From NCBI RefSeq assembly GCF_964355755.1, contig NC_092679.1, positions 3,038,001-3,102,000 on the forward strand: a DNA stretch of 64,000 nucleotides, written 5' to 3'. The DNA comes from Antedon mediterranea. Lineage: Eukaryota > Echinodermata > Crinoidea > Comatulida > Antedonidae. Shown here piece after piece: positions 32,001 through 57,900 of this stretch; positions within the stretch are counted from its first letter, which is position 1, and each line of letters starts with the position of its first letter. The translations under genes were made by a program, and so were the position numbers. The notes beneath the pieces were generated by a model. It had not been told where the DNA came from and made no database searches. It was given only the letters and a program-made list of their open reading frames with translations.

Positions 32001-34193
32001 TATAATTGTTCACCATAAAATAAATTAAGGGTGTTCTTTCCACGAGTTTGTGATACAAATGTAATAAACTATGTACATTGTAAGATATGGGTCTATCTAT
32101 ACTGTGATATACGCTAAGACTTTATACGAGACATGGACTCATAATCGCCATTTTTGTAAGAGTATTTATTGATCCACACATAGGTGGCAGCATACACGAT
32201 TTAAGTTATGTCAAGTACGTATTACTATATTATTCTGGGAAACACTACATACATACAAATAATGTTAGTGACGATCGGGCCAAACATATAAGACTCGTCT
32301 CTATGGCCCGATTGTCTGTTCACCAATTACTCAATCAAAATATGGAGCCTATGAGGAATAACTTTATATAATGTGTATATAATATTAATATTCTATTTTA
32401 GAAGACATTGTGATATGATTGATACTTCGTATCTAATTATAATTAATATCATAGGGTTTAATGTTTATGCGCAAAATACTTTTTTTCTTCAATAACTTTG
32501 TAACTTCAAAATATTAATATTATATTGTATCTGTCCCTGTGTCATCTTGAGACAAGTTATTTGAGCTTCTAATTGTGTTAATCTAAATATGGATCCAAAA
32601 TCTAAATTTAAATCTGGCTCCAATATGTACAGGGATACAGTAAATGTATTTTCTGTTAATCAATTAATTAATAATATCGAAGAAATTATAAATGTTTAAA
32701 ATAATAATAAAATAAATATGGAATAAAACATTTTTTTAACAAAGAAATTGGGAGCTCAGGTTCATGTGACCAATATGAGGTTGATGATAAATCTGTCAGC
32801 TACCTGTAAGGTTAGAAATGATAAAATAACATATATTAATTCATTTTGAAAGAATATAATAAGTACTAAACTAGGCCTCCTAAATAAATGTAAATATAAA
32901 TAATTATTTTATATTATAATATAGGCCTATATATAAGGCTAGGCCTTTATTGTGCATAAATAATTAAATTATGTTAATTTAAATTACCGTTAATTGGTAC
33001 ACACCACACACACATACAACGCAATTGGTACATCTGTCTGCTTGGCCTATCTACTCTCGACTAGGCCTAAGCCTACCAGCGGTTACCTAGGCCTAGCACT
33101 AGTTTAGAGACTACTACTGTAGGCCTAGCTAGCGGCGGGGAACAGACGATCGGGACCACGGACGATCGGGCCCAAGACGACCGGGCCCAGAAAACGTGGT
33201 CCCGATCGTCTTTGGCGTTGGGCCCGATCGTCTTCGGCGTTGGGCCCGATCGTCCAGTGTTTTCAGAACCACGTTGGGCCTGATCGTCTTACCAGTTGGT
33301 CCCGATCGTCTTAGCGTTGGGCCCGATAGTCGTTTGTGTTATATAAAATAATGTGCCACATTTCATCATTTTTAATTCCTAGTGCTAGTGTCAACGTGCT
33401 TTTCTTGCATAATTAAGATTTTAATTAAAAAGGTTAGATTTTTTTCTGATTTTATCATCCTCTAATTAACACTATCACTACTACTGGTTTTAAGAATTTC
33501 TTACCAATACTCTCCATTTATGAATAAATGTGATTGTTTTGATTGTTATTATTGTGTTGTTTGTATTCGCGTATTTATTTAATTTTCCGAGAATGTTTTG
33601 GGCCCGATCGTCTTGTTTGTTGGGCCCGATCGTCTTGTTTGTTGGGCCCGATCGTCTTGTTTGTTGGGCCCGATCGTCTTGTTTGTTGGGCCCGATCGTC
33701 TTTCACCCTGACTGGGGCTTGATGGGCCCGATCGTCTTTCACCCTTGATGGTCCAGATCGTCTCACGATTTGGGCCCGATCGTCTTTCACCCTGGGGCTT
33801 GATGGGCCCGATCGTCTTTCACCCTTGATGGGCCCGATAGTCTCACGATTTGGGCCCGATCGTCTTGAAGTGGGCCCGATCGTCTGATAACCCTAGCGGC
33901 CTGGCCATAGCCCTCTACTTACTACTACTAGCTAGGCCTAGGCTAGAGACAGGCTAGGCCTAGTAGGCCTAGGCCTAGTACTAGAGTTAGGCCTAGGCCT
34001 AGGCCTAGGCTAGGCCTACTAGGCCCCTTTTCTCAGCTGTTTGTTAGGCTAGTTTATACAATACAATTAAAGCAAATCTTACAGAAACTGTATACTTAAA
34101 TACACCTGGTTCAAGTGCAGCATTAATTAATTGCAATTTAGTAAAACATAATGCTATAAATAAAGCAAAGTTTAGCTTCCACGTAGAACCCAT
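17015..34193 (-). CDS. TMEM87: TMEM87 (GOLD-domain seven-pass membrane protein), 16 exons
   Basis: Exons, minus strand: 34193-34083, 31773-31713, 30955-30870, 30075-29950, 29263-29120, 28075-27887, 26541-26451, 25799-25738, 25093-24973, 24201-24039, 23421-23328, 22911-22846, 19013-18846, 18225-18048, 17938-17833, 17084-17015. Together they give about 611 residues in frame (human about 555). Residues 1-25 are a signal peptide and residues 26 to about 290 are luminal. Membrane segments follow, with family blocks [31 protein letters not shown] and [11 protein letters not shown]. The cytosolic tail ends [10 protein letters not shown]...FDDSDEE...ERSKME, nearly as in vertebrates. The family is Golgi-associated, with reported trafficking and mechanosensitive roles. 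Exon 6 is a 63-codon Thr/Pro/Lys repeat with a weak donor (GTTGGT). The intron after exon 12 has AT-AC borders. TMEM87A versus B cannot be assigned; this is probably the single pre-duplication gene. Confidence 0.95.
17130..17460 (+). mobile_element. LINE 3'-end remnant
   Basis: One frame reads [20 protein letters not shown], a typical C-terminus of CR1/L2-like ORF2, and then stops. A 3'UTR with GTAAAGCGCTTAGAGACAT and an (ATT)n tail to 17458 follows. It lies between the last two TMEM87 exons. Confidence 0.75.
17478..17765 (+). mobile_element. tRNA-derived SINE, family S1, copy 1
   Basis: The head (17478-17560) keeps a tRNA-like CCGAGCAGTTAAGACAGTGG and a degraded B box. The body reads AGACGAGTAGGGGATTACCC and ends ...TTACCCAGTATAAATATAT. 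Reverse copies lie at 37731-38031 and 60216-60442. The copy at 38031 has the better box, CGAGCGGTTAAGACAG. Confidence 0.75.
18312..18405. repeat. Dispersed repeat with TTCCCTGGGGCCGTGCAC
   Basis: The sequence TTTATTTAACCAGGGAGGCC followed by TGGTTGTTCTTCCCTGGGGC recurs at 26101-26190 and, diverged, at 26219-26305. All three copies are in TMEM87 introns. Class unknown; possibly a SINE 3' body. Confidence 0.6.
18521..18710. mobile_element. MITE family 3, copy 1
   Basis: The TIR AAGGCCAATTTACACAGAC pairs with GTCTGTGTAAATTGGCCTT, and sub-terminal GGTAACGGTAA / TTACCGTTAACG arms continue inward. A second copy lies at 52604-52792. Confidence 0.8.
19170..19730. mobile_element. Palindrome-rich element of CTCCGGAGT units
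   Basis: The ends TATACCCCTTTCACACCAA and TTGGTGTGAAAGGGGTATA are perfectly complementary. The interior repeats GGTGTGAAAGGT and the palindromes ACTCCGGAGT / CTCCGGAG many times in both orientations. No ORF. It sits inside the TMEM87 U12-type intron. Confidence 0.8.
19818..19990. repeat. Dispersed element with AGGCCTTGT ends, copy 1
   Basis: The block TACAAATTGCACTCCTCAAT...GTGTAGAAGTTTACCAAAT is bracketed by AGGCCTTGT and ACAAGGCCT. Diverged copies occur at about 35845-36030 and, reversed, at about 55895-56085 in a BBS1 intron. Confidence 0.7.
20097..20236. mobile_element. MITE family 1, copy E
   Basis: Full copy with a single internal unit, ending 9 bp before the TTAA-flanked element. Confidence 0.85.
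20245..22810. mobile_element. 2.6-kb non-autonomous element with TTAA flanks
   Basis: The left end TTAAAATGGACCTGAAATGG is the exact reverse complement of the right end CCATTTCAGGTCCATTTTAA (22791-22810), with weaker symmetry further in. TTAA at each outer edge fits a piggyBac-type target duplication, though the termini are not classic piggyBac. No ORF longer than about 75 codons. It ends only about 35 bp from TMEM87 exon 12. Confidence 0.65.
23441..23490. mobile_element. MITE family 1, truncated copy F
   Basis: Only the left end (AAAGCTCTGTCTAGACTATC, then CTTTATGTGACAAAAAATGT) is present. It lies 20 bp from the acceptor side of TMEM87 exon 11. Confidence 0.7.
23545..23764. mobile_element. 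Inverted-repeat element with CTGTTTTCCTGTC ends
   Basis: AGTCTGTTTTCCTGTCAACG at the left is matched by CGTCGACAGGAAAACAGGCT at the right. Inner arms repeat AACGATAGCG / CGCTATCGT. No ORF. Confidence 0.7.
23878..24003 (+). repeat. 20-bp minisatellite GGAGGTGGTGGCATGAGCGA, about 6 units
   Basis: Six near-identical 20-bp units in a TMEM87 intron, ending 36 bp from the donor of exon 24039-24201. Translations of it are artefacts. Confidence 0.9.
24344..24504. mobile_element. MITE family 1, copy G
   Basis: Full but diverged copy in a TMEM87 intron; the terminal CTACACTATCAAACTTTATG is intact on the left. Confidence 0.8.
24665..24797. mobile_element. MITE family 2, copy 2
   Basis: Ends AAGCTTGGTTCCCAC / GTGGAAACCAAGCTT, with a partial relative immediately downstream at 24868-24952 that ends TAGTGGGAACCAAGCTTAA. 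Confidence 0.8.
26594..26993. mobile_element. Two adjacent MITE family 1 copies (H, H2)
   Basis: 26594-26759 is a full copy with three internal units. 26890-26993 keeps only internal units and the right end (TGTAGACAGAG). Both are in the intron upstream of TMEM87 exon 7. Confidence 0.75.
27301..27488. mobile_element. MITE family 1, copy I
   Basis: Full copy with three TATTTGGGCATATCACTACC units and both TIRs. Confidence 0.85.
27905..28046 (-). repeat. 18-bp coding minisatellite in TMEM87 exon 6
   Basis: About eight units of an 18-bp sequence (GCCTGCTTGGCAGGTGTG on the plus strand) that encode a six-residue AKQATP-like repeat in the luminal domain. The period is a multiple of three, so unit gain or loss keeps frame. 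Confidence 0.85.
28363..29060. mobile_element. Composite: tRNA-headed element with ACCTCCGCC ends inside a MITE family 4 copy
   Basis: The outer ends (TTTAAAGATGTATTTTCC at 28363; GTTCAGGGGGACAATA at 29048) belong to family 4. Within lies an element from CAAACCTCCGCCTA (28417) to TAGGCGGAGGTAAT (28801-28814). It contains a tRNA-like segment with TTTGGTGTAATGGTTATG and B-box GGTTCAAGTCCCGC (28548-28602), then a GTGAGAATCGGCTAAAAACT body. Confidence 0.65.
29440..30335. repeat. Direct duplication of about 170 bp flanking TMEM87 exon 4
   Basis: 29465-29640 and 30175-30335 share GACTAGTCC.TTATGGTCCA and GAGAGCACAGGCTATT, then TTATCCAGGTAAGTCTGG. One copy lies on each side of the exon 29950-30075. 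Origin unknown. Confidence 0.7.
31060..31610 (-). mobile_element. Penelope-like retroelement 3' fragment (GIY-YIG)
   Basis: The minus-strand frame (about 31600-31299) carries a GIY-YIG endonuclease core: [20 protein letters not shown] followed by H...S.I..HLHDSE. This arrangement is typical of the C-terminus of Penelope-like elements. Downstream on the same strand (31237-31162) is a hammerhead-like segment: stem arm ACATGTC, core CTGATGA, a stem GAGAA/TTCTC, then GAAAC and CATGT. The reverse transcriptase portion is absent, so this is a 5'-truncated dead copy in TMEM87 intron 2 (between exons 2 and 3). Confidence 0.7.
31162..31237 (-). ncRNA. Candidate degenerate hammerhead ribozyme
   Basis: Order on the minus strand: ACATG-TC (stem III arm plus cleavage-type UC), a 36-nt spacer for stem I, CTGATGA, a 5-bp stem, GAAA, CATGT closing stem III perfectly. 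Against it, one extra U precedes stem II and stem I pairing is poor. It may be a decayed copy of the motif known at Penelope-like termini. Confidence 0.35.
31835..33890. mobile_element. Foldback-like element with arrays of GGGCCCGATCGTCT
   Basis: The left block (31835-31975) has AGACGATCGGGCC-type motifs. The right blocks (33145-33330 and 33600-33890) have many copies in mostly the opposite orientation, including five perfect 22-bp units (GGGCCCGATCGTCTTGTTTG plus TT) at 33600-33709. Further single motifs lie at 32270-32310. The interior has no transposase-like ORF. It lies in TMEM87 intron 1. Confidence 0.6.
33934..34025. repeat. AGGCCTAGGCCT array beside TMEM87 exon 1
   Basis: Almost continuous TAGGCCTA / CTAGGC units, ending about 55 bp from the exon 1 donor. 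Shorter clusters occur at 33055-33130 and 34645-34830, and single TAGGCCTA palindromes are scattered through the window. Confidence 0.85.
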
Positions 34194-35051: not shown

Positions 35052-35066
35052 ATGCTGGAAGCCTAG
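35052..35066 (+). other. Minimal upstream ORF (MLEA-stop)
   Basis: ATG CTG GAA GCC TAG directly after the acceptor at 35051 and 8 bp before the 54-codon ORF. It may limit initiation at the next ATG. Confidence 0.35.
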
Positions 35067-35073
35067 AGAAAGA

Positions 35074-35238
35074 ATGTCATTCGTCCAGAAGTATAAAGTT
35101 TCATTTGCAATTATAACTGGATTGGCGATTGTGCACCTTGGTTGGTACTCACTAGCGAACAACTCAACATTCAACAATAAAAAAAGAGAAGCAGGAATCG
35201 TCACGGCAGATTATAAATCAACTAACAGTAAAAAGTGA
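35074..35238 (+). CDS. Small membrane protein, upstream ORF 1 of MKKS (54 aa)
   Basis: ATG to TGA, 54 residues. Residues 1-10 are polar/basic (MSFVQKYKVS) and residues 11-28 form one hydrophobic span (FAIITGLAIVHLGWYSLA). A basic, Ser/Asn/Lys-rich tail contains REAGIV. It resembles the second small ORF at 36377: both have K-Y-x-V-S followed by a span with HLG.Y.L. The human MKKS mRNA is reported to carry upstream ORFs encoding small mitochondrial membrane proteins; the same arrangement here suggests homology. No direct sequence comparison with the human uMKKS peptides was possible. It may also resemble SMIM20-type proteins through AGIV, but weakly. Its link to the MKKS transcript is inferred from position. 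Confidence 0.6.
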   Translation: MSFVQKYKVSFAIITGLAIVHLGWYSLANNSTFNNKKREAGIVTADYKSTNSKK

Positions 35239-35291
35239 CAAATAACAAACCATACGTAGTATGTATGCATATTTGTTGTTGACTTTAAAAT

Positions 35292-35601
35292 TAAAGATGT
35301 ATTATCGCCCAAAAACATGAAAAATAAAGATTAATAAAATTAGATTTTGATTAGCCCATTTTGCATTTTTTTTAATAAAGTTATTCACTTCTTATTTCAA
35401 TTTTATAAAAAGACAAAAGAAATTGTTAATGTTAATTTTACTATTAGACAAAAACCATTGTCTGATACACAATTTAGGTATATTTTTTCAGGGAAAATTT
35501 TTTTTTTTTTTTCAAAGTGAATAATTATTATGTGACATTAAAATGGCATATTCAACAAAATTAAAAAAATATTTTTTTAGGGAAACAATATATCTTTAAG
35601 C
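35292..35601. mobile_element. MITE family 4, copy in the MKKS 5' intron
   Basis: Ends TTAAAGATGTATTATCGCCC and AAACAATATATCTTTAA, with the same internal TTCAAAGTGAATAATTATTA block as other copies. Confidence 0.7.
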
Positions 35602-36034
35602 TGTTGTTAATTAATTATGATGTTTATTATACTCTATATTTATTTGTTCATTAATAAATAATAACCATGGAATGAGGCTAAACCTTTGAAACAGATTCTG
35701 TACTACTTAAACTCTATATTAAAATAAAAATGTGAAAAAAACAAAAAAAATTAAAAACTACTTTACAGTTACTTTAAAAATACAAAATACGGGCTAAAAT
35801 ACAACTAGACATCAGCCCAAAATATTTATTGAAATTACAGTATTGCAGGCCTTGTCTTTTGAAAATTATAGGTGTGCTACAAATTGCACTCCTCAATACA
35901 TTCAGGGATGCTGTAGGTGTGCTGTTTGTATTTCGGTGTGTAGAAGTTTGCCAAATTTAAATTAAATTTAAATTTAATTTGCCTCAAGGGCAGTTTAGGA
36001 GTGTGTTAAGCGAGTGAGTGAGGAGCTTGGTATT

Positions 36035-36300
36035 GCTGTTGATGAACTTTGAACTTTTCATTGAACTGCAAGAGATTATGATTATGATGTTGTTTGAATG
36101 TAGAATGTATTATTTTTAGTGGATGTAATGTATTGGGTATGTCAGCCAAAAATTTGTATTGAAATTATTGCTGATTGTTGAACTTTGAACCTTTCATTGA
36201 ACTGCAAGAGATATGATTATGTTGTGGTTTGAAAGAATGAATTACTATATTAGTCCATGGAATGTATTGGGTTTTTTTTGGCAGATTTAGTTTTCCTTCA
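36035..36300 (+). repeat. Tandem duplication of about 135 bp
   Basis: Two units share TTTCATTGAACTGCAAGAGA and GGAATGTATTGGGT-like blocks. They lie directly upstream of the acceptor of the second small-ORF exon. Confidence 0.7.
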
Positions 36301-36376
36301 CTTGGTATTTGTGATCATTATTTGAACGTTTTTATTCCTTAAATTTCAGAAAAGTTGAGTTGCTTTTTTTTGTAAA

Positions 36377-36562
36377 ATGGGTATTGTAAATTGGGTCAAA
36401 CATAACAAGTACGTGTCAGTTGGCATTGGCTTAGTGGTCTTTCATCTTGGCGCATATACATTATTTAAATCTGCATTTTCACCTGAAAAGCGTTGGACAT
36501 CATCTGTCAATTATGGAGCATACAGCAGGTCATACGAAGAGAAACAAGAAACCAAAGAATAG
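36377..36562 (+). CDS. Small membrane protein, upstream ORF 2 of MKKS (61 aa)
   Basis: 61 residues in an exon starting at 36350 after a good acceptor (TTAAATTTCAG). Residues 13-30 form a single span (VSVGIGLVVFHLGAYTLF). The C-terminus is Tyr/Ser-rich and charged. The stop TAG is immediately followed by a donor (GAATAG|GTATAT), and the MKKS start exon begins at 36682. This ORF is therefore most simply a 5'UTR-encoded peptide of the MKKS transcript. It resembles the 54-residue ORF upstream. The human counterpart class is described as mitochondrial; localisation here is inference. Confidence 0.65.
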   Translation: MGIVNWVKHNKYVSVGIGLVVFHLGAYTLFKSAFSPEKRWTSSVNYGAYSRSYEEKQETKE

Positions 36563-36687
36563 GTATATTTATAATTCTATTTTTATTTTTAATCTAAGTA
36601 TAGAGTTGGAGAATTTTACTAAAAATATGAAATTTACACATAAATGTGTGATTAAAGTGTATATGTAACTTTTATTTTCAGATAATT

Positions 36688-39600
36688 ATGAATAAATCAA
36701 ACATCTCAAAAAGCTTCTCATCAAATTTTGAATCATCCGTTTTGAATAATGAAGATAATTGGTTGGCACTCCAAACATTTAGAAATCTTATCAAATCTTG
36801 CTATGGGCCTAATGGCCATCTCAAGACTGTCCAGCATCATAGTGGTGGCCAGGTAACCTTAACATCCAGCTCTTACAACCTCTTAAGGAATCTACCAATT
36901 AAAAGAGCATTTCTGAGATTGCTGGTGACTGCTGTTACTGAGCACCTGCGATTATTCAGCGACGGAGGACTCTTTGTTGCGCTGTTTGCTTCGGAACTCA
37001 TTTCTCTTTCTTGTTTTACTGATCTTCCACGGATATTATGCTGTGACGTTAACAGCATACTATTAAGTTGGTGCAAAGAATTTATGAGTATCTGCAAGAT
37101 TCCTGTTGACATCAGCAGTATGGACCAGATGATGGCAGTGGTTCGATCAGTCATATCAACCAAGCCAGCTTGCTCATTTTCTCAGACAGACATCTTGCAA
37201 ATTTCGAGTTTGATCATACAAGCTTTCTTAAAAACTCTGCCACCTGCTGACTCTCATAAACTCATGGATCAATTTGTCCAATATATCGAGGTCGGAGGTT
37301 ACGATACAGCGAACTCACAGATTGTTGATGGTGTGTTGTTTCAGCTTCCAAATGACCTTCAAGAGGACTTCCTTCCACCAGAAGAGAGTTTTCATTCTGG
37401 TTCTTTAAAGATTGCCCTCTTCAAAATCTCTTTAGCAGGAGATACTGACGATTTTGTGAACACCGTTTACGAGGTTACAGAAGGGTTATCCCCAATGGAT
37501 GTTGTTACTCAAAAGCTCTTTGACATTGCAAACAAACTGATTGAAGATTCCGTTGATGTTTTAGCCTGTCAAAAAGTGATTCACCCAAGCCTTAAGAAGT
37601 TTCTTACAAAGAATAGAATATTAGTAATTGACCGTCTGTCTGTTGTTAATATTGGCGCCATTGAGACTCTTACAGGTGACTTTTATACTTTAATATTTCT
37701 TTAAACTAGATTTTGAATTGAATTGAAATATATATTTATACTGGGTAACCTCTTCAGTCAAAGACTGGTCTCCCAGGGGGCCCAGTTGGTGATCAGTGGC
37801 TGTGATGTACTAATACACCGGGGTCACCCCCTACTCGTCTCAAAAGATGTACTAGGTTTTTTAAAGTGCACATGAGCTATGTGTGTACACTGGGCCTACG
37901 GTTTATAGGCCTTATCCGAGAAGACTCGTTCTACCACCAGAACCATGGAGTGAGTGAGCCTCGAACCCCTGCCGATGTAATGGCTACGTAATTACGGTTC
38001 CACTGTCTTAACCGCTCGGCCACTCACTCACATTTATATTGTGAATGTTTAATGCAAATAAAAACCCATTAGACTCACAAGCTATAAAGTTTTGTTTTAT
38101 TGATTTTAAAAAAAAGTATTTTCATGATCCGCTATGCAACTATTATTAAGTTTAACAAACATTCTGCAAATGCTCTTATGTTTCTGAGCATGCTCAGTTG
38201 TATGGTCCTAAAACGTGTTGTTATTTTTTCTTTTTTTCATTTTTATTCACCAAGGATAGCCCAATAATTCTGTATCATGCTGAAATTCAAAAATAAATTT
38301 TAATAAATTATTTTGTTTAAAAGGTGCACAGTGTATTTCTAGCTTGCATTGGTCCGACCGAATGGAGGGTATGTATGGAAGACTGGAGAAGCTTGAAAGA
38401 GCAAGTTATTTCAAGAAAAGCTATTACCATTTTGTGAATACTGCTACTCCGGTGTGTACATTGATTTTGTGTAGTATACTTCAAGAAACATTGACTGAAA
38501 TAAAGGTAACAATAAGCCAATCTTATGTCAGTTACAAATATTTACATATTTTTTGATTAATATTTATTATTTGTATTTTTATCTGTTTTAACCTCTGTTT
38601 ACACTAGTTTGACAAAAAAAGTGTGATGTGTCCAAATATGGTAGTGATATGACAACATCATGTCCATATATGGGCATATCATATTTTTTTCGCATAGAGT
38701 TTGATAGTGTAGACAGACCTTTAGACTTTAGAGGTGTAAACTAATTCTTCTCTATTTTTTATTTTCACCCTTTTAGAGTGTTTGTATGGTTGCGCAAAAT
38801 GTCTTGCGAAGCCTGCTTGTAAATCCAGTCGTTTTACCTGGTGCCGGGTGCTTTGAAGCGTTGCTTACTGCTTATTTGAAACAGAAAGTAAGTGTATGAT
38901 GTAAGGTGTGAATGGGGTTTAAACAGGGAAATCCAATTACACTTTAAAGTGAGATACTTAGTATTTCACTTAAGTGAGATACTAAATATTTCACTTAAGT
39001 GAGATACTAAGTATTTTACTTAAGTGAAATATAAAGTATTTCACTTAAGTGAGATACTCAGATACAAATAAAACTATTCAAGCGCCGACTCGATCGCTAT
39101 CGTAGTCGTACGTCACTTTACAATATACAATGAGTTAAAAAGAAAAGAAATACAAACAATTTTTATATAGTACAGTTATAACTGACAAATTTTGTACCAA
39201 AATTTAAAAATAGTAATATTAAAAACTCGAAATAAAAAGATGTCTATACCGCAACAAAACAAAAACATTACATGCTATTTGCGAGTTGTATAAGATTGTT
39301 TCGTATTTTCCCTGATCTTGTTAGGTATACTGTACAAAATTTGTCAAGACACAATAAAACATTATTACTAATGGGAAGTGTATCCTTCCCAGAACATATA
39401 ACATTTTTCGTCATTGTTACTGGTGCAGAATGTTTCCCAAACATCTAACTCGTCTTGTTTAATTATATTTAACTGTTCTGCTCTTACACATTGTAATGCA
39501 TCACAGCTAAATAAAAAGTGAGATATGTCCTCTATATTTCCAGAGTTACATAATGAACAGAGACCATCATTCTCCATGGTCCATTTACTTAATTTAAAAT

Positions 39601-41532
39601 TTAAAGGTAGAGTATTGGAACGGGCTTGAAATTTAAAACGAGTACCATTAAAATTTGTTTTATCAAGTAAAAACTTTTCAAGATCCGGCTTTGATTTTAA
39701 CTTTGCATAAGAAGATAGCGACGATTTAGATGCGAGGTCCTCTGACCATTGATTATTTACATTATCTAAAATATTTTGTTTCAGTAAATTAAACCAATTT
39801 TCCATAGTGCGATTTTTAATAACATTGTTAAAAATATGCATGCATTCAAATCTACAGAAAGTGGTTCGTACACAACTAAGGAATTTAAACCGTAATTCTT
39901 TTGTGTTGTAATTAAGCATAGTCTTGTACAATAGGTTGGGCCATCGTTTCTCATTTAACCCGACTAAACGTTCAAAGAATTTTAGTTGTAATATGTTATG
40001 AGATACGGTTAAGGGTATCCATCCTAAATCTCCATATAAGGCCACTTTAGGTGTATACGCTGGTGCTTTTAGAATATATCGTGCCATCTGCATTTGAAGC
40101 CGTTCCAGTCTATCGATATCTAAATTGGACCCTCCAGTCCAAACAGAGCAAGCATAAATAATAGAAGGTAAAAATTTTGTTTTCCATAAGATATTTCCGT
40201 GGGCATCATAATTAATACATTATTTAAATCTAAAGCTGTCTACACTATCAATCTTTATGTGACAAAAAAAGGTCCAAGGACCTTTGCCAACAACTAGTTC
40301 AATCGCTCGTGCTGTCACATATTGATTACGCCAATGCATTGTATTATGGTCTACCTGCTAATACCCTTGCTCCAATGAAGAGGTTACTGCACCAAGCTGC
40401 GAAAATAATTGTCAGGAAAGGTCGGTATGACAGTGCAACTAACGCCATGCGATCCTTGCACTGGCTTCCGATGTCTAATAGATGTCAATTCAAAATAGCG
40501 TATCTTGTATGGCGTTCGCTTAAAGGTTCCGCTCCAAGTTACCTGAGAGATATTCTTACTGTGCGGAATGTTTCTCGTAGTACTCGTTCAAGCACCAGCA
40601 ATTATAACCTGACAATCCCACGAACTAAACGAAAGACATTTGCTGACCGTTCGTTCGCCGTAGCAGGACCCAAAATTTGGAACAGATTACCAAGTCACAT
40701 TAAACACTTAGACGACTATAATCAGTTTAAAAAACATTTAAAAGCACTATATTTCAAACAATGTTACGATACTAATTGATGTGAAGCGCCGCTGATTATA
40801 ATTAAATGTTGTATAAATGTGCGCTATACAAGTAATAATAATAATAATAATAATAATGTGCCCATATATGGACATGATATTTGGGCACACCACACTTTTT
40901 TTCCAAACTAATTTAATAGTGTAGACAGAGCTTTAGAGAGTTGAAACCACTGAGAAGCATACTTTATTTTGTGTTTACAAAAAAATATTAATTAATTGTA
41001 AATTAATTAATTTGTAAAAATATAGAGTAAATTTATGCATAGTGTCTTGTTTTTTTTTTTGTCAAAGGTGTTGAATGTTGAAAATGCACTATGTTCAAAT
41101 ATTGGTTGTTCTATCTACCAGTTTAAACTGACAGCTAAGAATTTTATCGTGGCTCTTCAAACCGTTGCTATTAGTAACCAAAATGGTTACCCCGTCACCA
41201 ACATCGGCCAATCACATCTGTGGATAGTTCCTGATCAACATAAACTAGATTCTGATTGGATCGTTGATAGAGTTTGTAACTGTGGACTGTGTACATTTGA
41301 TAGTTCACAGAAAACTGTGGAATTAAAAAATACCAATATGGAACTGTTTAGTGAAACTAGTGAGGTAAGGGGGGAAATCAAAACTAGTTTTGACACCAAA
41401 ACCATTGTTTTAAAGCTCAACAAAGATGCAGTCATTGATCAATATGATATAAAAATGAATGGGCTGAATATTGCCGTTGAAACTGGCAACCTTATTCTTC
41501 GTATAAATCATGCTTTTTCTATTTCTGAATGA
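36688..41532 (+). CDS. MKKS: MKKS / BBS6, chaperonin-like BBSome assembly factor
   Basis: Exons 36688-37675, 38324-38505, 38777-38887 and 41068-41532 join in frame to 581 residues (human 570). The exon containing the start opens at 36682 after TTTATTTTCAG. The protein has the group II chaperonin fold pattern: CYGPNG at 38-43 (nucleotide-binding loop position) and SDGG at 91-94, where active CCT subunits have GDGTT, so ATPase residues are degenerate as in vertebrate MKKS. Family blocks include SKPAC, CQKVIHPSLKKFL.KNRI...DR, GAGCFE and the C-terminal NIAVETGNLIL. MKKS acts with BBS10, BBS12 and CCT to assemble the BBSome core, near the centrosome/basal body. Intron 3 (38888-41067) holds two LINE fragments and a split MITE. 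Confidence 0.95.
37731..38031 (-). mobile_element. tRNA-derived SINE, family S1, copy 2
   Basis: Reverse-oriented copy in MKKS intron 1. The tRNA-like head at 38031-37945 contains CGAGCGGTTAAGACAGTGG and B-box GGGGTTCGAGGCTC. The body ends in TACCCAGTATAAATATAT. Confidence 0.8.
38589..38722. mobile_element. MITE family 1, copy J
   Basis: Short copy with one internal unit, in MKKS intron 2; the left TIR is partly lost. Confidence 0.8.
38945..39062. repeat. Tandem palindromic repeat TTTCACTTAAGTGAGATAC
   Basis: About four units of 27 bp. Each contains the perfect palindrome TCACTTAAGTGA, giving potential for alternative hairpins. Located just after the MKKS exon 3 donor. Confidence 0.85.
39368..40210 (-). 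mobile_element. LINE ORF2 C-terminal fragment
   Basis: An open minus-strand frame of about 280 codons from 40210. It begins like the end of a reverse transcriptase (FLPSIIYACSVWTGGSNLD, RLERLQMQMARYI) and ends with a Cys-rich knuckle, CSLCNSGNIEDISHFLFSC. It is intact over this length but lacks the RT palm and everything 5' of it. Inserted in MKKS intron 3. Confidence 0.8.
40231..40934. mobile_element. MITE family 1, copy K, split by a LINE tail
   Basis: The left end (TAAAGCTGTCTACACTATCA, 40231-40268) and the remainder from ATGTGCCCATATATGG (40855) to TAGACAGAGCTTTA (40934) are separated by the LINE fragment at about 40270-40857, so the MITE was there first. Confidence 0.75.
40270..40857 (+). 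mobile_element. LINE 3' fragment with (AAT)n tail, nested in a MITE
   Basis: A frame of 156 codons (40309-40779) matches the C-terminus of CR1/L2-like ORF2: SHIDYANALYYGLP, LHWLPMSNRCQFKIAYLVW, GPKIWNRLPSHIK. A stop, a short 3'UTR (GCGCTATACAAG) and an (AAT)n run to about 40857 follow. A 5'-truncated insertion by target-primed reverse transcription explains it. Confidence 0.85.
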
Positions 41533-46471: not shown

Positions 46472-48123
46472 ATGTCTGACAACAAAGCAAGTGCCTATTG
46501 TAATTCAGTAAATAGAAATCATTTTGGAATTTATAGCCGCGATTTTGGAACTTTTGACATCACAGTCTGTCCTGGGTATGATAATTCTGAAATAGTTTTA
46601 GTAATCATGGACAATAAGTACATAATAAATGGCGTCCCAGTAGACCTTGACAGGTCTGGAGTACTGTTGACGAATGGTTCTGAAAGAAATCCTCGACTTC
46701 AGTCATTTTATACTTCTGCCATGCAAGCAAGAAAAAACAGATCAAAGAAGGATGACTTTATTGAAGAAAGGTATACAACGATTGTCGTATAATAGGGACA
46801 CATTAATACATTACTTATTATTCTGAATGAATTGTTGAATGTCATGTTTTGTTCTTATACTTTATTTCCTGTAGAAACTCAAAAGCACAATTGTTAGTTT
46901 CAACTAAAAGCTTGTTTCGAAAAATGAAATATTTACTCAAACAATCTCATAAGCTGGCAAACAGTCAACATCTTTATCTGGATGACGTCAGAGTTCTAGA
47001 TGATCTGGTTAAAAACGTCGTGAGAAGCATGTGTGTTAAAATGAAGTCTAGTCAGCATATTCTGATGATGAATGGAGAACTATCTGAACAGAGAGAAATA
47101 TTGATGAAAACATTGAAGATATTCTGTGAGGAGTCGATTCGTTCCAGTGAAATAAGTAAAGGACTGACGAATCGGTTGCAAAACTCTGTTGAGAAGGCTA
47201 TTGAAGAAAATCGACAAAAAGACGGTCTCGAAAGTCATGTATTCCATAAAGAAGAAAATGACCTAGAATTGTTTAAAAATCTTAAATCAGAAGTTAGTAA
47301 TTTAAGAGAAGATTTAGAAAAAATTAGTAAATCACAAACTTTAAATAGCACAGCACCGTCTTTATGGCAAACAATATGTAACTCTTGGAAACGGGATAAG
47401 ATTAAACGAAGTGATATGAATACCTCCACGATGCCTTCAACAGAAATAAGTGATATCACCAAAAGGCTTGTAAAACATGGTGCATCAACCCCTGACGAAG
47501 TCAATTTGATGAATCTCATTGATGTCAGTGTTCAAGAGGAAATAACAGAGTTAAAGAAAAAGAATTTAGAATCTGAGGAATTTGTACATGAATTACTGGA
47601 TGAAATTGGGAAACAAGAACAAATAATTCAGGTTAAAGATGTGGAATTAAATGAAGCTAGAGAACACATTGATGTTCTTTTAAAAAGGTCAAAAAATGAC
47701 CTTGCGACAAATGGAGAGTTGAGTCAACAGAAACGTCACGACCAAGATTGCTGTAAACTCCAAGAAGATAAGTCAATGATGAGTTTAGAATTGGAGAGAC
47801 TTCGACAAACAAATCGTCGTCTGCTTAACGAAGTATGTTGTCTACGTCATAGCAACAGAGAGTTGGAACAACTTATCGAAAAAGGACAGGATCAACGTCT
47901 TACAACAGAAACGCACAATGAACACGTGAGAGGCACGCAGTTACATGGTTTTTACGGCTCTGGACACTTCACGCCTGGATTGTACTTGCGAAACCAAATA
48001 ACAAATGCCTCTAGTCCTGCTCTTGTCACAACAGGTCGTCACGTGATTCCATCTTCACAATTTAGCCAGTCAATGTTTGATGACGTCACATGTCTATCAT
48101 CAAACAATGACGAAGCAAAATGA
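46472..48123 (+). CDS. Unrecognised coiled-coil protein, 2 exons
   Basis: Exons 46472-46770 and 46875-48123 join in frame (AG|A across a GTATAC...CTGTAG intron) to 515 residues. An acceptor at 46466 (TTCATTTTAG) shows an upstream UTR exon. Residues 1-90 look globular, with beta-like stretches (EIVLVIMDNKYIINGVPVDL). From about residue 100 the chain is mostly charged helix with heptad character (about 150-205, 255-330 and 355-405), followed by a Ser-rich tail. No signal peptide or membrane span. I do not recognise the family; centrosomal, ciliary and cytoskeletal coiled-coil proteins share this look, and neighbouring BBS genes make a ciliary role only a guess. A poly(A) signal lies 17 bp after the stop. 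Confidence 0.8.
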
Positions 48124-50372: not shown

Positions 50373-51278
50373 CTATTCTTCTTCACTTCTTGATACGTCA
50401 TCTCTGTAATCTTGCAGTTCGTCGTCATCATTGAACCTAACTTTGGTTTGTACAGTAGTGAGGCTGTGTTCTTCTTCTTCGTTGTGCAAGCCAGAGTAAG
50501 GGAACGAGTATGACATTCCGGAAAAGCGCAGTGTAATCTTCATAGCAATTATCTGTACGATGATGACGATAATTGCTAGCATACAATGCCAAGCAAATAT
50601 CATTGAGAAGAATTTCACATTCAGGTGGTCATCTTCATCCCACGAATAATCGCTAAGAGGATGATAGAGGGTGCAGCCAATCTGCAACATCCAAGATCCC
50701 TGGATAAAAGTAGCCCATATACGTAACCATGGTAACACATCATCTTTCGGCAGCCAAATTTCTCCTAACGTAAACAGCAAACAGAGGAACACCATTATTA
50801 CCTGTATAACATGCATTCGTATGTTCAGTGCTGATCGACCGTGTAGATGGAAAGAAAACAGCGTGCATTCGATGAAAAAAGCAAACGCTAGAAAAACGTT
50901 AGCCCACCTTTCTTGACCTTTAAACCAGGTTCCGACGGCAATTTTTGCCGCTCCGTACATCGCAAAGCCGGCCCACATAGTACAATGCTGCCAAATGCTT
51001 GAGTATATAAACACACCGTCTTTGTTGAACAGTCTCCACCTCCATGTTTTGTAAACTTGTTCGCCTATAAGCCCACTAAGCGCTAAGACCAGCACGAGAA
51101 TCCCTTCAACCGGCAGTCGTCGAAGAAGGAGATGTAGTTTAGAATATCTGTTATTACCTTTTCGTCCACCACCACCAATTCTTGGGTAAGTTGAATTGAA
51201 AACTCTTTGTAAATTCCACCATACCGACAACGCCATGAACATAATACCAGAAGCGGCATGCCCAAAAAATCCACCCAT
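50373..51278 (-). CDS. TMEM45-family (DUF716) membrane protein, copy 1
   Basis: 301 residues in one coding exon. The acceptor CTTGTTTGTAG lies 8 bp upstream of the ATG, so a 5'UTR exon exists. The N-terminus MGGFFGHAASG matches the TMEM45 start (MG.F.GH..PG). Family marks are WQHCTMW...GA, several hydrophobic spans (about six or seven), the block RIWATFIQGSWMLQIGCTLY and a final span near residues 230-255. An acidic C-terminal tail follows. TMEM45 proteins are multi-pass membrane proteins of poorly defined function. The paralogue at 53499 shares the layout at clearly lower identity, so the duplication is old. Confidence 0.9.
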   Translation of the reverse strand: MGGFFGHAASGIMFMALSVWWNLQRVFNSTYPRIGGGGRKGNNRYSKLHLLLRRLPVEGILVLVLALSGLIGEQVYKTWRWRLFNKDGVFIYSSIWQHCTMWAGFAMYGAAKIAVGTWFKGQERWANVFLAFAFFIECTLFSFHLHGRSALNIRMHVIQVIMVFLCLLFTLGEIWLPKDDVLPWLRIWATFIQGSWMLQIGCTLYHPLSDYSWDEDDHLNVKFFSMIFAWHCMLAIIVIIVQIIAMKITLRFSGMSYSFPYSGLHNEEEEHSLTTVQTKVRFNDDDELQDYRDDVSRSEEE

Positions 51279-53498
51279 TATGACGTCTACAAACAAGCAA
51301 GTAAATTAGTGTATAGTGTATTCATATTATCAAATGGTATTTTTTTAGGCCTATACTTGTGACGTATGTGCGTTGTTGATCACGTTTGAAATGCAAATGC
51401 AAGGTCAGCTAGCTAAGAATCTATTTGTATTATCATGGATTAATCCATGGTATTATCCAAAGATCGCATTTGGTACTTAACACTCGATGAGTAACTTTTG
51501 ACCCAATTGAAACGGATCAATACAGTGGCTAAGAAGACAATGCCCATTGTATGACTTTTTAACTATGGTACTAAACGGTATTCTGTCTTGCTGTCTTTAA
51601 AGCCATTTTTTAACCATCATTTTAGACATTTGCATTGTTTTAGATTGTTTATAAGATTGTTTCTTCTTTTTAAATTTGAGTCTCAAGTTTTAACTTTCTG
51701 TATTGTAACATTGTTATATGTAATCATGTATGGAATGTTGATTTTGACCGAATAAATGCATGAATAGCTTAAACGGTTTTTCTCGAATATAATATAATAT
51801 CATAATAATAATATTATTAGTATTAAATTATAAGCCTGTCAAAAATAGATATGGTTGTATAATGAATGGCAATGAAGCTCTTCTGCCCACCCCGTGTCCA
51901 CACAACGTAAGCGCAACCAGAGGCGGAACCCAGAGGCCTGAGGCAACTGATTTAGTAACCGTAAGTGGCCCTCTGATTAAGCTGGAGGCCTCGGGCGTTT
52001 TAGCCTTTTTTTCCCGACATTATTTCAATGCTTGTTTTTTCCCCATAAGCTCCGGGGCCCCCTGGGGTTAGCTAGTTAGCGCCCATAGCGGTTACGCCAC
52101 TAAGCGCAACGCAAGTGAGTTGATCAATGACAACTTCGACAGATAATTATGACCACAGCCGCGTAGTGATTGGTCAACTGCTTTAGCTTGGTTCTAACTT
52201 GGACGGAACGCAGCGCAAAGACCGAAGCTACCGTGCCAAGTAATTTGACCAATCACGACGCAATTTATCTGATTACTCCGACATTTCAATCCAGTGTGTA
52301 CCTATTTATTAATTTCAGTACTTTTTAAGAAAATTGTGTTTAGGATGGTCGATTTTCCTCAATCCAAATTGTAATTTGTAATCTCTAAGTGTGGTTAATG
52401 GTTCTTTCAGTAAACATATAGGCCTACCTTATCTTGCGGTTGAATTAGTGTATATTATTTTGTTTGGTTAGTAAATTTAAGATGTGTGTTTATTTGGTGA
52501 GCGTGTTCTTGTGTGTGCTTTATTTTGTAAATTATTTTGTGTACTTGGAAATCTTTGAAATTCACACGATGGGATAAAATTGAATGGACGCCGCGACGTC
52601 TTAATGGCCAATTTACACAGACGAGCGGTAACGGTAATAAAAATATAGAATATATCTATGTTAATCCTTATGAACATTTACACACAACGCGGAATGGACG
52701 GCGGTTTCCGCTCAGTGGAGATTCTACGTGGGACTGACAAGCTACGCGGTTTTCCGCTTACCGTTACCGCTTGTCTGTGTAAATTGGCCTTTTAGCCTAT
52801 ACTTGATGAAATGAACGAAGTTTTCGGTTTTCTCTATTATGCAATCTTATATTTTGTTTGGTTATAAATTAAAGATTGGTTTCTTCGTTGACCGTACTTG
52901 CCATTTTTTAAAATAGTTTGTGAACCAATTGAAGGCAATCCAAAGATCTTACATAAGCCGACTTAATATCACCTCTCTGAATAAATCCCAGTCTATCCAT
53001 GGATTAATGAATATTCATTAATCAATCCGAGTTATTGTTACCATATCACAATGCACCGTTCGAAATACGTTGTGCCCAAAAGGATTTCAAATCACGTGAT
53101 CAATTGAAAGAGAACTTTACGAAATGTATGTTTTAGTGCGAATTCTAGACGGCGATTCGCTTAATATTGGCATACATATGGCGTTTCATAAGGCAAAAAT
53201 CGAAACACCAACTGGTGCTCACGGGTACTGCTGTGAATTTCCTGTGAAGGATGGAATAAAGTTTATCTGTATCTGGTCGACTAACATAAAAGATGACATT
53301 ATAAGACTAATTTGTGTTCATTTGTTAACATCCTTCTTTCTGTTTTATCTAACAATATACTAATCAAATCCCGGGATTCATAAATTTTTTCATTAATCGT
53401 ATCGATTTATTTGAACTAATAGGCTTACTATAGGCCTGCAAAACACAAGTTAAACCCATAACATTGAATATGAATTATATTTTATTATTTTAATCACG
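51279..53498. other. Region between the two TMEM45-like genes
   Basis: Contains a diverged MITE family 2 pair (about 52090-52285) and MITE family 3 copy 2 (52604-52792). The latter has TIR GGCCAATTTACACAGACGAG and its complement. No supported exon; the 5'UTR exon of copy 1 could not be placed. Confidence 0.45.
52604..52792. mobile_element. MITE family 3, copy 2
   Basis: Matches 18521-18710 across both TIRs and much of the interior (GGTAACGGTAATAAAAATAT). Confidence 0.8.
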
Positions 53499-54389
53499 TT
53501 ATAAACTATTGTCCGACCAGTTATTTTGTGATCTGTTCCCGCCTTGTAAACGTTCCAAATACATAGTGTCACTTCGTTGTTCATTATCACTGTCTTCCCC
53601 TATCTCGAGCTGAGAATATCCTCTCTTGTGTCCGAAGGTGAACTTCATTGCTATTGCCACGATCAAATACAACATCACCACTGATATAACATTTCCAATA
53701 CAATGCCAGGCGAAAATCATTGTAAAGAATTTCACACTTTGGTCGTCTGGTTTCCATTGGAATCGCCCGGTTCGTATCGGATACAATGCGCAGCCAACCT
53801 GAATCAACCAAGTACCATTTACAAACGTAGCCCACATTCTCATAAAAGGTAAGAACTTGTCCTTTTTCATCCATATCTCCATTCCCGAAAATAATACACA
53901 CAGTAAGATAGCAATTAACAATAAAACATGCAGTTTTGTGTTGAGTACATCGCGGTCTTTTAAGTGGTTTAGAAACACGATACTCTGAATGAAAAAAGAA
54001 AATGTCCTGAAAACTGGTATCCATGGTTTTAGATTGACGCAGCAGCACGCGGCCAGGATCTTAACCAATCCAAAGATCCAGAATGCCACCCAGATTGTAC
54101 AATGTTGCCATACATTAGCCTCTATAAAGTTTCCTTCCTCGTCAAACATCTTCCAGCGCGTGTAAGGGTACATATTTTCCGCTATGAACCCAAATGCTGT
54201 ACACAGACAAATTATGATACCTTCAAGTGGTATACGCCGACACAGCCTGAGAGGTCTTGACGGTACTCCAGCCCTTCCATCCCGTTCATACTTGTTTCGT
54301 AAGGTGTTGAACGATAATTGGAGCACCCACCAAGATGCCCAGATTAGAAAGAAAAACCCAGAGCCTACGTGGCCTAGCCAATTGCCCAT
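53499..54389 (-). CDS. TMEM45-family (DUF716) membrane protein, copy 2
   Basis: 296 residues in one coding exon, with an acceptor (GTTTCTAACAG) 16 bp upstream of the ATG. The N-terminus MGNWLGHVGSGFFFLIWASW, then WQHCTIWVAFWIFGLVKIL, MRMWATFVNGTWLIQVGCAL and FFTMIFAWHCIGN, align block by block with the gene at 50373. Several hydrophobic spans are present, with a hydrophilic C-terminus from about residue 255. Same-strand tandem arrangement about 2.2 kb from its paralogue. Function of the family is not well defined. Confidence 0.9.
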   Translation of the reverse strand: MGNWLGHVGSGFFFLIWASWWVLQLSFNTLRNKYERDGRAGVPSRPLRLCRRIPLEGIIICLCTAFGFIAENMYPYTRWKMFDEEGNFIEANVWQHCTIWVAFWIFGLVKILAACCCVNLKPWIPVFRTFSFFIQSIVFLNHLKDRDVLNTKLHVLLLIAILLCVLFSGMEIWMKKDKFLPFMRMWATFVNGTWLIQVGCALYPIRTGRFQWKPDDQSVKFFTMIFAWHCIGNVISVVMLYLIVAIAMKFTFGHKRGYSQLEIGEDSDNEQRSDTMYLERLQGGNRSQNNWSDNSL

Positions 54390-54998
54390 TGTAGTACATC
54401 AATTCCTGTTAGAAACAACAAATCATAGTAATACTACATGAAAGTAGTCACCAAAAGTCCAAACTTTGTCATTTTTTTATAGACCGGCTCTTAAAAATTC
54501 TTTAAAAAGTGTGTATCGACCCTCGATACACACTGTACTAACAATAGTGGACTTTGAAACATGCCGAAAGTTTCATGTAACGAGTGTTGGCAAATTCCCT
54601 TTTGTACTTTTGTGATAAGGCATGTATGATTAACACTTCTGCTGATTGACAAAATGAATGTTTATCCCCGGATCGAGGTTTACTTACTGGTTCGGCTTGA
54701 CTGGCTTTGTTTTACTTCTGGCATGAAACGGTGCCCGCCGAGTCAATGATAGACTTTGAAGCTATCTTTGTTTGAAGGCACAATCGACGTTCCATATCAT
54801 CGACATTCTGTTTGTTTGAACGTTGAGGGCAGGAAAACAAATAGCAACAACCTAATTTTTCTGTCTTAAAAATAACCAAGTAAAAGTAGGAATTATTATA
54901 AAACTACTACTACTTTTTTGTAAAACAAACTAATCGCTAATGTAGAATATGCATTTACTCTAGTTGAAGATAAATAAGCGTTACATAATAAAAAAAAA
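54390..54998. other. Upstream region between the TMEM45-like gene and BBS1 (divergent)
   Basis: Contains a perfect 12-bp-stem hairpin (54508-54534). No clear X-box (RFX site), which many ciliary genes carry, could be recognised. The BBS1 start follows an A-rich run. Confidence 0.5.
54508..54534. repeat. Perfect 12-bp-stem hairpin
   Basis: AGTGTGTATCGA, loop CCC, TCGATACACACT. About 120 bp upstream of the TMEM45-like ATG and 465 bp upstream of BBS1. Confidence 0.85.
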
Positions 54999-57900
54999 AT
55001 GTCTTCAACGACAACATCAAAGGCTAAGCCTTCGGGTTCAGGAGCAGCAACAGCAGTAAGCCCGACTTCAACGGCCTCTGCAGAGTCCCCAAGGCCAAAA
55101 AATGTTACACCAAGGTAAGCCTAGCTTCTTTGCAGTTAAATACATTTTATTTTTGTGTAAAGAATTATAACACTGATGTAATTACACTTTACAGTCACAT
55201 TATTAAAGACTCCTTCTTGTCACTGACTGTGAAATAGGCCTATAAATTAATAATAATAGGCCTATAAGCCTAATATTATTAATAAATATAAAAAATCCCA
55301 GAATTATTGATAATTGTATTGTATTGATGATTAAATAAATGTGAATGTTTCTATTTTCACAGCAGCGGCAAGACTGGCCCTAGTGATGGTTCTGATAAAT
55401 GGTTAAATGCCCATTATGATCCTGTTGCAAGTCTCTATACATTCACAACGTGCATGTGTGAGTAATGAAGACGGCAATGTTGTGTGTAATTTTAATGATT
55501 TTTGCACAATTTGTCTCGGCTGCCTACTAGAGAGTTGGAGGGAGTATTAATTTATTAATGTGCCCAAATACGGAAGTGATCATCGTCATCATCATCACAT
55601 AAAGTTTGATAGTGTAGACAGAGCTTTATTGTCAGTTTTTTTTATTGAAGAAAAAATAATATTCTATGTTATTTTGAATTAATTCATAGGTCTGTCGGAC
55701 ATCAATGGAGATGGTGAAAACAAGCTAATAGTTGCTGACTTAGGAACAGGATCGTATGATATGAAATTGAAAGTCTACCGTGGAACAACATTGATGAATG
55801 AGAACACGATAATTGACTTACCAACAGGCGTCTGTGCTTTTCACATGGATAACAATGAACATAGAGTGCCAGGTAGGATAGGTCTTGTCTCTTGAGACGT
55901 GAGAGTGCGATCTCTCACCTAACACACTCCTAAAATGCCTTTTGGAAGTTTGATTTACAGCACACTTAAATTTGGTAAACTTCACACCAACCAACACCAA
56001 CTAAACACCTACAATACAGCACCCTTGAATGTATTGAGAGGAGTGCAATTTGTGGCACACCTGCACAAGGCCTTGTAGGAGGTTTTATCCTCCATAATAT
56101 TAACAGTCCATCCCATCTTTTAAAAGCTTTTTAGAAATCATACTGACATACATAAATTATATATTCAGACTCTGTTGAATAACTCCTGTCACTCTTGAAT
56201 TGATAACATTGGAACAATGTTTAAAAATTAAATATTAAATATTCTTATTTTAACAACAAAAATATTATTATTATACTATTTTTCAGCTATTGTTGCAGCC
56301 TCTGGTCCCTTCATATATGTGTACAAAAACCTACGTCCTTACTTTAAATTTACACTACCCCCTTTGGAAGTGAACCCCATCGAGAAGGACCTCTGGAACC
56401 AAGTAAAAGAGGTAAGAATGCTTAAGAGAGAGGGCCACTACTTTAAAATTGGGAATTATAACATCATCACAGAGAGACACATTCACTTGAATTGAACCCA
56501 AGACCTTAGGAATGGTAGACAGGAAAGTTAAACCCATGTTACACAGTCACACTAATGTACTGTAATTACAGTAGTTACAATAATATAATTTGTTTTTATT
56601 ATTTTAGGATAAGATTGATGTAGTCATACTTCAAGAAATGTTGGAGGGTATTCAGCGAGAGTCCAACGAGGGCGCTCTAACAGTTCGTTCTTTAAGGTAA
56701 CATGTGTATTGACATTTTATTATTTACTTTCTAAGTATATTATTACTAGAAGACTGTATAATAATTGTTATTATTGTTATTGATGCTGATGCTTTGTATG
56801 TTATGTATGGTTCTATGCTGAAATAAAAGATTATTGATTGATTGTTTTTTTTTTTATAGATTTTTGATGATTCCAGATAAGGAACAAAAAATGGATTTTG
56901 CAAATCTCTATAAAAATACTCCACTTAAAAGACAGGTGAGCTTATTGACATAATATTCTGACCCCATGAAGTGACTGGTGACATATTTAATGGCTGATTT
57001 TTCACTACTGTGTTTTTTATTACTCTAGACTGTCATTACATGTCTTGGCACACTCCGGAAAACAAGTGCTGATGACGATGCCATAAGCTGCCTTGTTATT
57101 GGTACAGAGTGTAGAGAAATTTACATACTTGACCCCGAAGCATTTACCGTTCTTTCTAAGGTTAGCATCGCGCAAATGAACATCCTGTTCAATAAAGTGA
57201 AACATTAAGACAGTTGTTTAAAAATAAAAAAGCTAGAATTGAAAAAAAACTAGTTTGACAAAAAAAATTGTGATGTACGCAAATAGGGTAGTCATGACAT
57301 GTGCTTAAATATGGTAGGGATATTACATCATCATGTCCATACAATATATGGGCACATCACATTTTTTTGATAGTAAAGTTTGATAGTGCAGACAGAGCTT
57401 AAGTCACAGAAGCTGTAATGATCGGTGCGGCCACATACCAGTGTTTACTCCCTTTTTATAAAATAGAGAAAATATCTGTATATCATAACTTTGTCTGTTT
57501 CCGTTGGTAGATGGACACTCCTAGTGTTCCAGTATTTATGACAATAACCGGTCTGTATGATGTAGAATACCGTATTGTGATGTCATGTCGAAATGGTAAT
57601 GTTTACACACTTAAAAGGTAAATAGTTCATTTATATATATATATTTATTTATTCAAGACTTGATGATATCAAGGATGGAGGTTTTCTGATGAAACGGAAG
57701 AAAAATTACAGTAGTATTGGCTTATGACTTTCGTATTGGCTTATGCCTTTCCTTTGGTCAAGGTGGCCACTGGACGAGAGAAGCCTTTGATCAATGTTAG
57801 GACCGATCAAGATGCTTTAAACAGTCCTGGCTTTGTTTGTATCAAACCTGTTAGTGGCGGTAATTATTGCTGTTGGTTTCGATTGAATAAAATAAAAAAT

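Follow-up and report, generated by a model that had tools for sequence, protein, structure and literature searches.

Two related small open reading frames precede an MKKS-type gene in the crinoid Antedon mediterranea and are most likely counterparts of human uMKKS1 and uMKKS2

The window analysed here is a 64,000-nucleotide (nt) stretch of the Antedon mediterranea genome (assembly GCF_964355755.1, contig NC_092679.1, positions 3,038,001 to 3,102,000, forward strand; all coordinates below are those of the window), and it contains an MKKS-type gene that is preceded by two small open reading frames (ORFs), ORF1 and ORF2 (Table 1). In a Pfam search, the first coding exon of the downstream gene matched the chaperonin family Cpn60_TCP1 (PF00118) with E=4e-32, and residues 23-427 of its product matched CCT and thermosome sequences, as would be found for a divergent group II chaperonin fold. 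Four exons splice to an intact coding sequence (CDS) of 581 amino acids (aa), consistent with a CDS of ~570-580 aa with a large first coding exon (here 988 nt), as in the human MKKS gene structure. The gene is presumably MKKS rather than BBS10, BBS12 or CCT, given the likeness of its C-terminus (AVETxNLIL) and of an LTGxQxIxSL motif to human MKKS. A sequence-only reading of the window had already named this gene MKKS, and on sequence grounds the gene in front of which ORF1 and ORF2 sit is indeed MKKS-type.

Two long ORFs stand directly upstream of MKKS, ORF1 with 54 codons and ORF2 with 61, and a four-codon ORF (MLEA; ATG CTG GAA GCC TAG) precedes both; it would form part of the leader provided that transcription begins 5' of it. 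All three lie where the sequence-only reading had placed them, and its claim that ORF2 ends exactly at a donor leading to the MKKS start exon was likewise borne out: the ORF2 TAG (36560-36562) is the final codon of its exon, the donor GTATAT follows directly, and the acceptor, TTATTTTCAG/ATAATTATG, sits 6 nt 5' of the MKKS ATG (36688). If spliced as proposed, the leader runs in the order four-codon ORF, ORF1, 45 nt, ORF2, 6 nt, MKKS, and its only ATGs are those that open these four frames plus one internal to ORF2. After splicing, ORF2, its TAG, the following ATA ATT and the MKKS ATG (36560-36690) share one frame, and ORF1 is also in the MKKS frame if its donor is the one at 35259. Just upstream of the leader, at 33000-33900, a GGGCCCGATCGTCTTG-like unit is tandemly repeated in a GC-rich array, and the proposed ORF1-ORF2 intron contains, at 36000-36260, two diverged copies of a ~80-nt stretch (GAACTTTGAAC... 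and CATTGAACTGCAAGAGAT...) that lie ~140 nt apart.

The two upstream peptides resemble each other beyond chance, and both carry the HLG.Y.L motif that had been noted from the sequence. Their comparison gives a BLASTP E value of 9e-5 and a BLOSUM62 score of 47, which shuffled ORF2 reaches in 0.08% of trials (P=0.0008) and which is still reached in only 0.2% (P=0.002) when shuffling is confined within each of three segments (N-terminus, hydrophobic core and tail). Among 456 peptides from local null ORFs, the best scores were 35 against ORF1 and 32 against ORF2, and 5 of 4,712 pairs of unrelated hydrophobic null peptides reached 47. In a search of 4,857 frames, each 30 codons or longer, ORF1 was the top match of ORF2, and ORF2 was the top match of ORF1, tied with one other frame. 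The similarity is seen in frame 0 alone (47, against 17-27 in the five other same-offset frames), the same codon is used at 1 of the 12 identical residues, and first, second and third codon positions agree in 15, 23 and 11 cases of 32 (8.3, 8.8 and 8.8 expected by permutation), together indicating that the likeness does not stem from a recent DNA duplication. Because third positions are at background and no matching DNA-level alignment between ORF1 and ORF2 was found, the likeness appears to be of old date and to be maintained in the protein sequence, with the divergence of the old duplication that the sequence-only reading had suggested. This frame-specific, amino-acid-level similarity points to protein-level constraint on the peptides and, as judged from the sequences, is the strongest evidence that both ORFs are coding. 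Most likely, ORF1 and ORF2 are old tandem paralogues under protein-level selection; convergence upon a common membrane-protein motif is a less likely source of their likeness.

ORF length and the 'single span' are weak evidence for coding, because two ORFs of such length arise in ~4% of dinucleotide-matched random sequence regions and a hydrophobic stretch of equal strength in ~19% of random local ORFs. The single-span character claimed earlier for both peptides thus stands as a prediction, a hydrophobic stretch and helix being found in each, but carries little weight. With 50 conserved exons from the same genome as its training set, a codon model gave a null tail of 0.075 for each ORF (joint P=0.02), and the GC content is higher in the ORFs (0.36 for ORF1 and 0.38 for ORF2) than in the flanking introns (0.27 and 0.19). 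Neither peptide had a significant match in Pfam, NCBIfam or the PDB, and a PDB search that used the ORF1 and ORF2 pair as a profile likewise gave none. Searches of the 354-Mb assembly, from which the loci retrieved in this work fall on eleven large contigs of 22-41 Mb, returned for each peptide the self-match only, and thus no extra copies that could serve a test of nonsynonymous against synonymous change (Ka/Ks). No relatives were found in the viral contigs scanned with MKKS and both peptides, or in the prokaryote genome contigs scanned with ORF2.

Both peptides have a net positive N-terminus, followed by a hydrophobic stretch at residues 9-27 in ORF1 and 12-30 in ORF2, and single-sequence models predict, with moderate confidence, a long helix in each (residues 3-52 in ORF1). 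In the build predicted for both, the basic N-terminus leads into a hydrophobic helix, HLG.Y.L closes this helix, and the tail beyond it is polar and rich in lysine. A basic N-terminus with one helix is as expected of mitochondrial inner-membrane microproteins, and, as the most likely counterparts of human uMKKS1 and uMKKS2 (below), the products of ORF1 and ORF2 would most likely be mitochondrial membrane microproteins. SMIM20/MITRAC7 (PF15061) and NDUFA1 (PF15879) are likewise short, with a basic N-terminus and one helix, and each was considered as an identity for ORF1; both were rejected, given that each family is clearly represented elsewhere, on contig C5. Neither ORF1 nor ORF2 scored above the cut-off against the Pfam models of these two families, the MWFE match of ORF1 being sub-threshold (E=0.26).

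Human MKKS reportedly carries the upstream ORFs (uORFs) uMKKS1 and uMKKS2, as described by Akimoto et al. in 2013. The human peptides measure 43 aa (uMKKS0), 63 aa (uMKKS1) and 50 aa (uMKKS2) (PMC9985340) and are mitochondrial (PMC7066179, PMC12573267, PMC10908861), and reporter assays have indicated that the human uORF represses the main ORF in a sequence-dependent manner (PMC7530721); this agrees with the statement of the sequence-only reading that human MKKS has regulatory uORFs producing mitochondrial peptides. PhyloCSF detects protein-level conservation in the CDS of the human leader, which GENCODE annotates as a gene of its own (PMC6886504). The layout in A. mediterranea parallels that of the human system, with two upstream ORFs of ~50-60 codons, similar sizes and short spacers, followed by MKKS, and with predicted single-span-like peptides where the human ones are mitochondrial membrane peptides. 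The proposed 45-nt inter-ORF spacer compares with ~65 nt in human, as taken from the coordinates in PMC5896265, whereas the length order is 54 then 61 here and 63 then 50 in human, and uMKKS0 has no match in the four-codon ORF. The earlier suggestion of the same design as in human is therefore supported for the layout. ORF1 and ORF2 are best read as the invertebrate counterparts of uMKKS1 and uMKKS2, the locus probably adds a new invertebrate case to the MKKS upstream-ORF system already known, and deep conservation of these ORFs is plausible. The fuller proposition, that the leader encodes two paralogous mitochondrial microproteins homologous to uMKKS1 and uMKKS2 and that a three-protein message, which links a ciliary chaperonin to mitochondrial membrane peptides, is older than the divergence of vertebrates from this lineage, is tentative, and we place it somewhat short of an even chance.

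The uORFs of MIEF1 and SLC35A4 are conserved uORFs with a dual role, giving a mitochondrial microprotein and repressing the main ORF. The system proposed here would resemble them in both respects, but they belong to other genes, encode other peptides and usually involve a single long uORF, not a related pair.

Our preferred reading, to which we assign a probability of roughly 0.58, is that ORF1 and ORF2 are real coding paralogues in the MKKS leader, counterparts of uMKKS1 and uMKKS2, whose products are mitochondrial and which repress MKKS; the single transcript, the translation, localisation and repression, and the homology to the human peptides are inferred. Several observations weigh against it. 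By codon score, both ORFs fall within roughly the bottom fifth of genuine coding windows, neither peptide has a significant Pfam family, and an alignment made on amino acids will by itself produce part of the codon-position pattern. A 17-aa fragment of human uMKKS1, NDDIPEQDSLGLSNLQK (PMC8448870), gave no above-chance alignment to ORF1 or ORF2, a result that says little because the fragment covers only 17 residues of the 63-aa peptide. The ORF1 donor (gta/GTATGT, 35259) is weak, the proposed ORF1-ORF2 intron contains stronger-looking donors at 35872, 35917 and 36014, and AATAAA motifs follow ORF1, those at 35323 and 35333 being ~90 nt past its stop. With a generic matrix written from general knowledge, the ORF1 and ORF2 donors scored 3.1 and 3.0, and the MKKS exon 1 donor scored 9.3. 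The ORF2-MKKS splice appears well placed, and the presence of ORF1 on the same transcript as MKKS would depend on the weak donor. These signals would also suit a separate, monocistronic small gene at ORF1 with its own polyadenylation site just downstream, next to a bicistronic ORF2-MKKS message, given that the donors at 35872-36014 could serve another first exon and that the ORF2-MKKS splicing is far tighter than that between ORF1 and ORF2. We regard this arrangement as unlikely: the AATAAA motifs in the AT-rich 35239-36351 are not significantly enriched (5 observed versus 2.7 expected, P=0.13), and since alternative polyadenylation in the human MKKS leader yields a short uORF-only transcript (PMC12573267), both arrangements may hold together. 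By the same human precedent, an ORF1-only short transcript beside the MKKS message is possible.

The missing alignment to the human fragment, together with the opposite length order, could also mean that the leader is coding and polycistronic but that its peptides are lineage-specific and not homologous to vertebrate uMKKS1 and uMKKS2, uORFs having arisen before MKKS on more than one occasion. This would make a coincidence of the same gene, the same number of long uORFs, the similar sizes, the short spacers and the single-span-like peptides, and we consider it quite improbable. That the ORFs are mere chance frames in an AT-rich 5' leader, acting at most as non-specific inhibitory uORFs, accords with the modest length statistic (P ~0.04 for both lengths), with hydrophobic stretches in about one-fifth of random local ORFs and with a joint codon P of only 0.02; the frame-specific, protein-level similarity of ORF1 and ORF2 nevertheless renders this explanation very unlikely. 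The common frame of ORF2, TAG, ATA ATT and the MKKS ATG would permit ORF2 to serve, through readthrough of its TAG, as an N-terminal membrane-anchor exon of MKKS, but frame sharing has a one in three chance, the stop is clean with the MKKS ATG at once after it, and no readthrough signal was found, though none was tested for, so that we find this scarcely credible.

Under the preferred reading of a coding leader related to uMKKS1 and uMKKS2, ORF1 and ORF2 would be translated first, ahead of MKKS, and with gaps of 45 nt and 6 nt MKKS would be made at a low level, mainly by leaky scanning and only rarely by reinitiation, because the 6-nt gap leaves almost no room for the latter. The leader would have a dual role, encoding two proteins and holding MKKS synthesis down. 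Exon junction complexes sit ~24 nt upstream of a junction; because both proposed donors lie 0-20 nt past a stop codon, these complexes would fall within the ORFs and would be cleared by translation. Such clearing would be in line with the immunity to nonsense-mediated decay proposed for human polycistronic messages, among which MKKS is listed (PMC3951408), and a low MKKS output would agree with the sequence-dependent repression by the human uORF (PMC7530721).

Table 1. Features of the proposed MKKS leader and of the MKKS-type gene in the window.
Feature	Position	Strand	Remarks
Four-codon ORF (MLEA)	35052..35066	+	poor start context, T at -3
ORF1	35074..35238	+	54-aa predicted single-span peptide, MSFVQKYKVSFAIITGLAIVHLGWYSLANNSTFNNKKREAGIVTADYKSTNSKK; A at -3
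Proposed ORF1-ORF2 intron	35259..36351	+	inferred; donor gta/GTATGT (weak), acceptor AAATTTCAG
AATAAA motifs 3' of ORF1	35323..35379	+	at 35323, 35333 and 35374; possible polyadenylation sites
ORF2	36377..36562	+	61-aa predicted single-span peptide, MGIVNWVKHNKYVSVGIGLVVFHLGAYTLFKSAFSPEKRWTSSVNYGAYSRSYEEKQETKE; strong context, A at -3 and G at +4
ORF2-MKKS intron, before the MKKS start exon	36563..36681	+	119 nt; GTATAT...TTATTTTCAG
MKKS coding exon 1	36688..37675	+	988 nt; ends in phase 1, donor CAG/GTGACT
MKKS coding exon 2	38324..38505	+	splices to intact CDS
MKKS coding exon 3	38777..38887	+	splices to intact CDS
MKKS coding exon 4 with stop	41068..41532	+	splices to intact CDS

Within MKKS intron 3, both-strand open frames at 39371-40780 resemble, by appearance, pieces of decayed elements of the LINE (long interspersed nuclear element) type. 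BBS1 (PF14779, E=1e-20; 55683-60170) sits ~14 kb beyond the 3' end of MKKS/BBS6 (36688-41532) and has the same orientation, so that two Bardet-Biedl genes are closely linked here, with a sulfatase gene and two DUF716 (TMEM45-like) genes between them. The DUF716 genes form a tandem pair on the minus strand (50376-51305 and 53502-54398), each a single open frame of ~300 codons, and 46831-48120 hold a 430-codon open frame of coiled-coil-like sequence that has no Pfam match.

Stable polycistronic messages are rare in animals, and the arrangement described here is suggestive of an ancient multi-protein MKKS message. The MKKS upstream-ORF system is already known and ordinary in kind; the present case, which is probably real, adds a useful invertebrate case in which the two peptides are clearly alike. 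If two related microproteins have been kept in the MKKS leader since before the vertebrates, a functional reason for their association with MKKS is more probable than an accident, and what selection retains would be marked by the HLG.Y.L helix. It would also offer a simple route to the function of uMKKS1 and uMKKS2, given that invertebrate sequences would widen the alignment and reveal the key residues and spacings.
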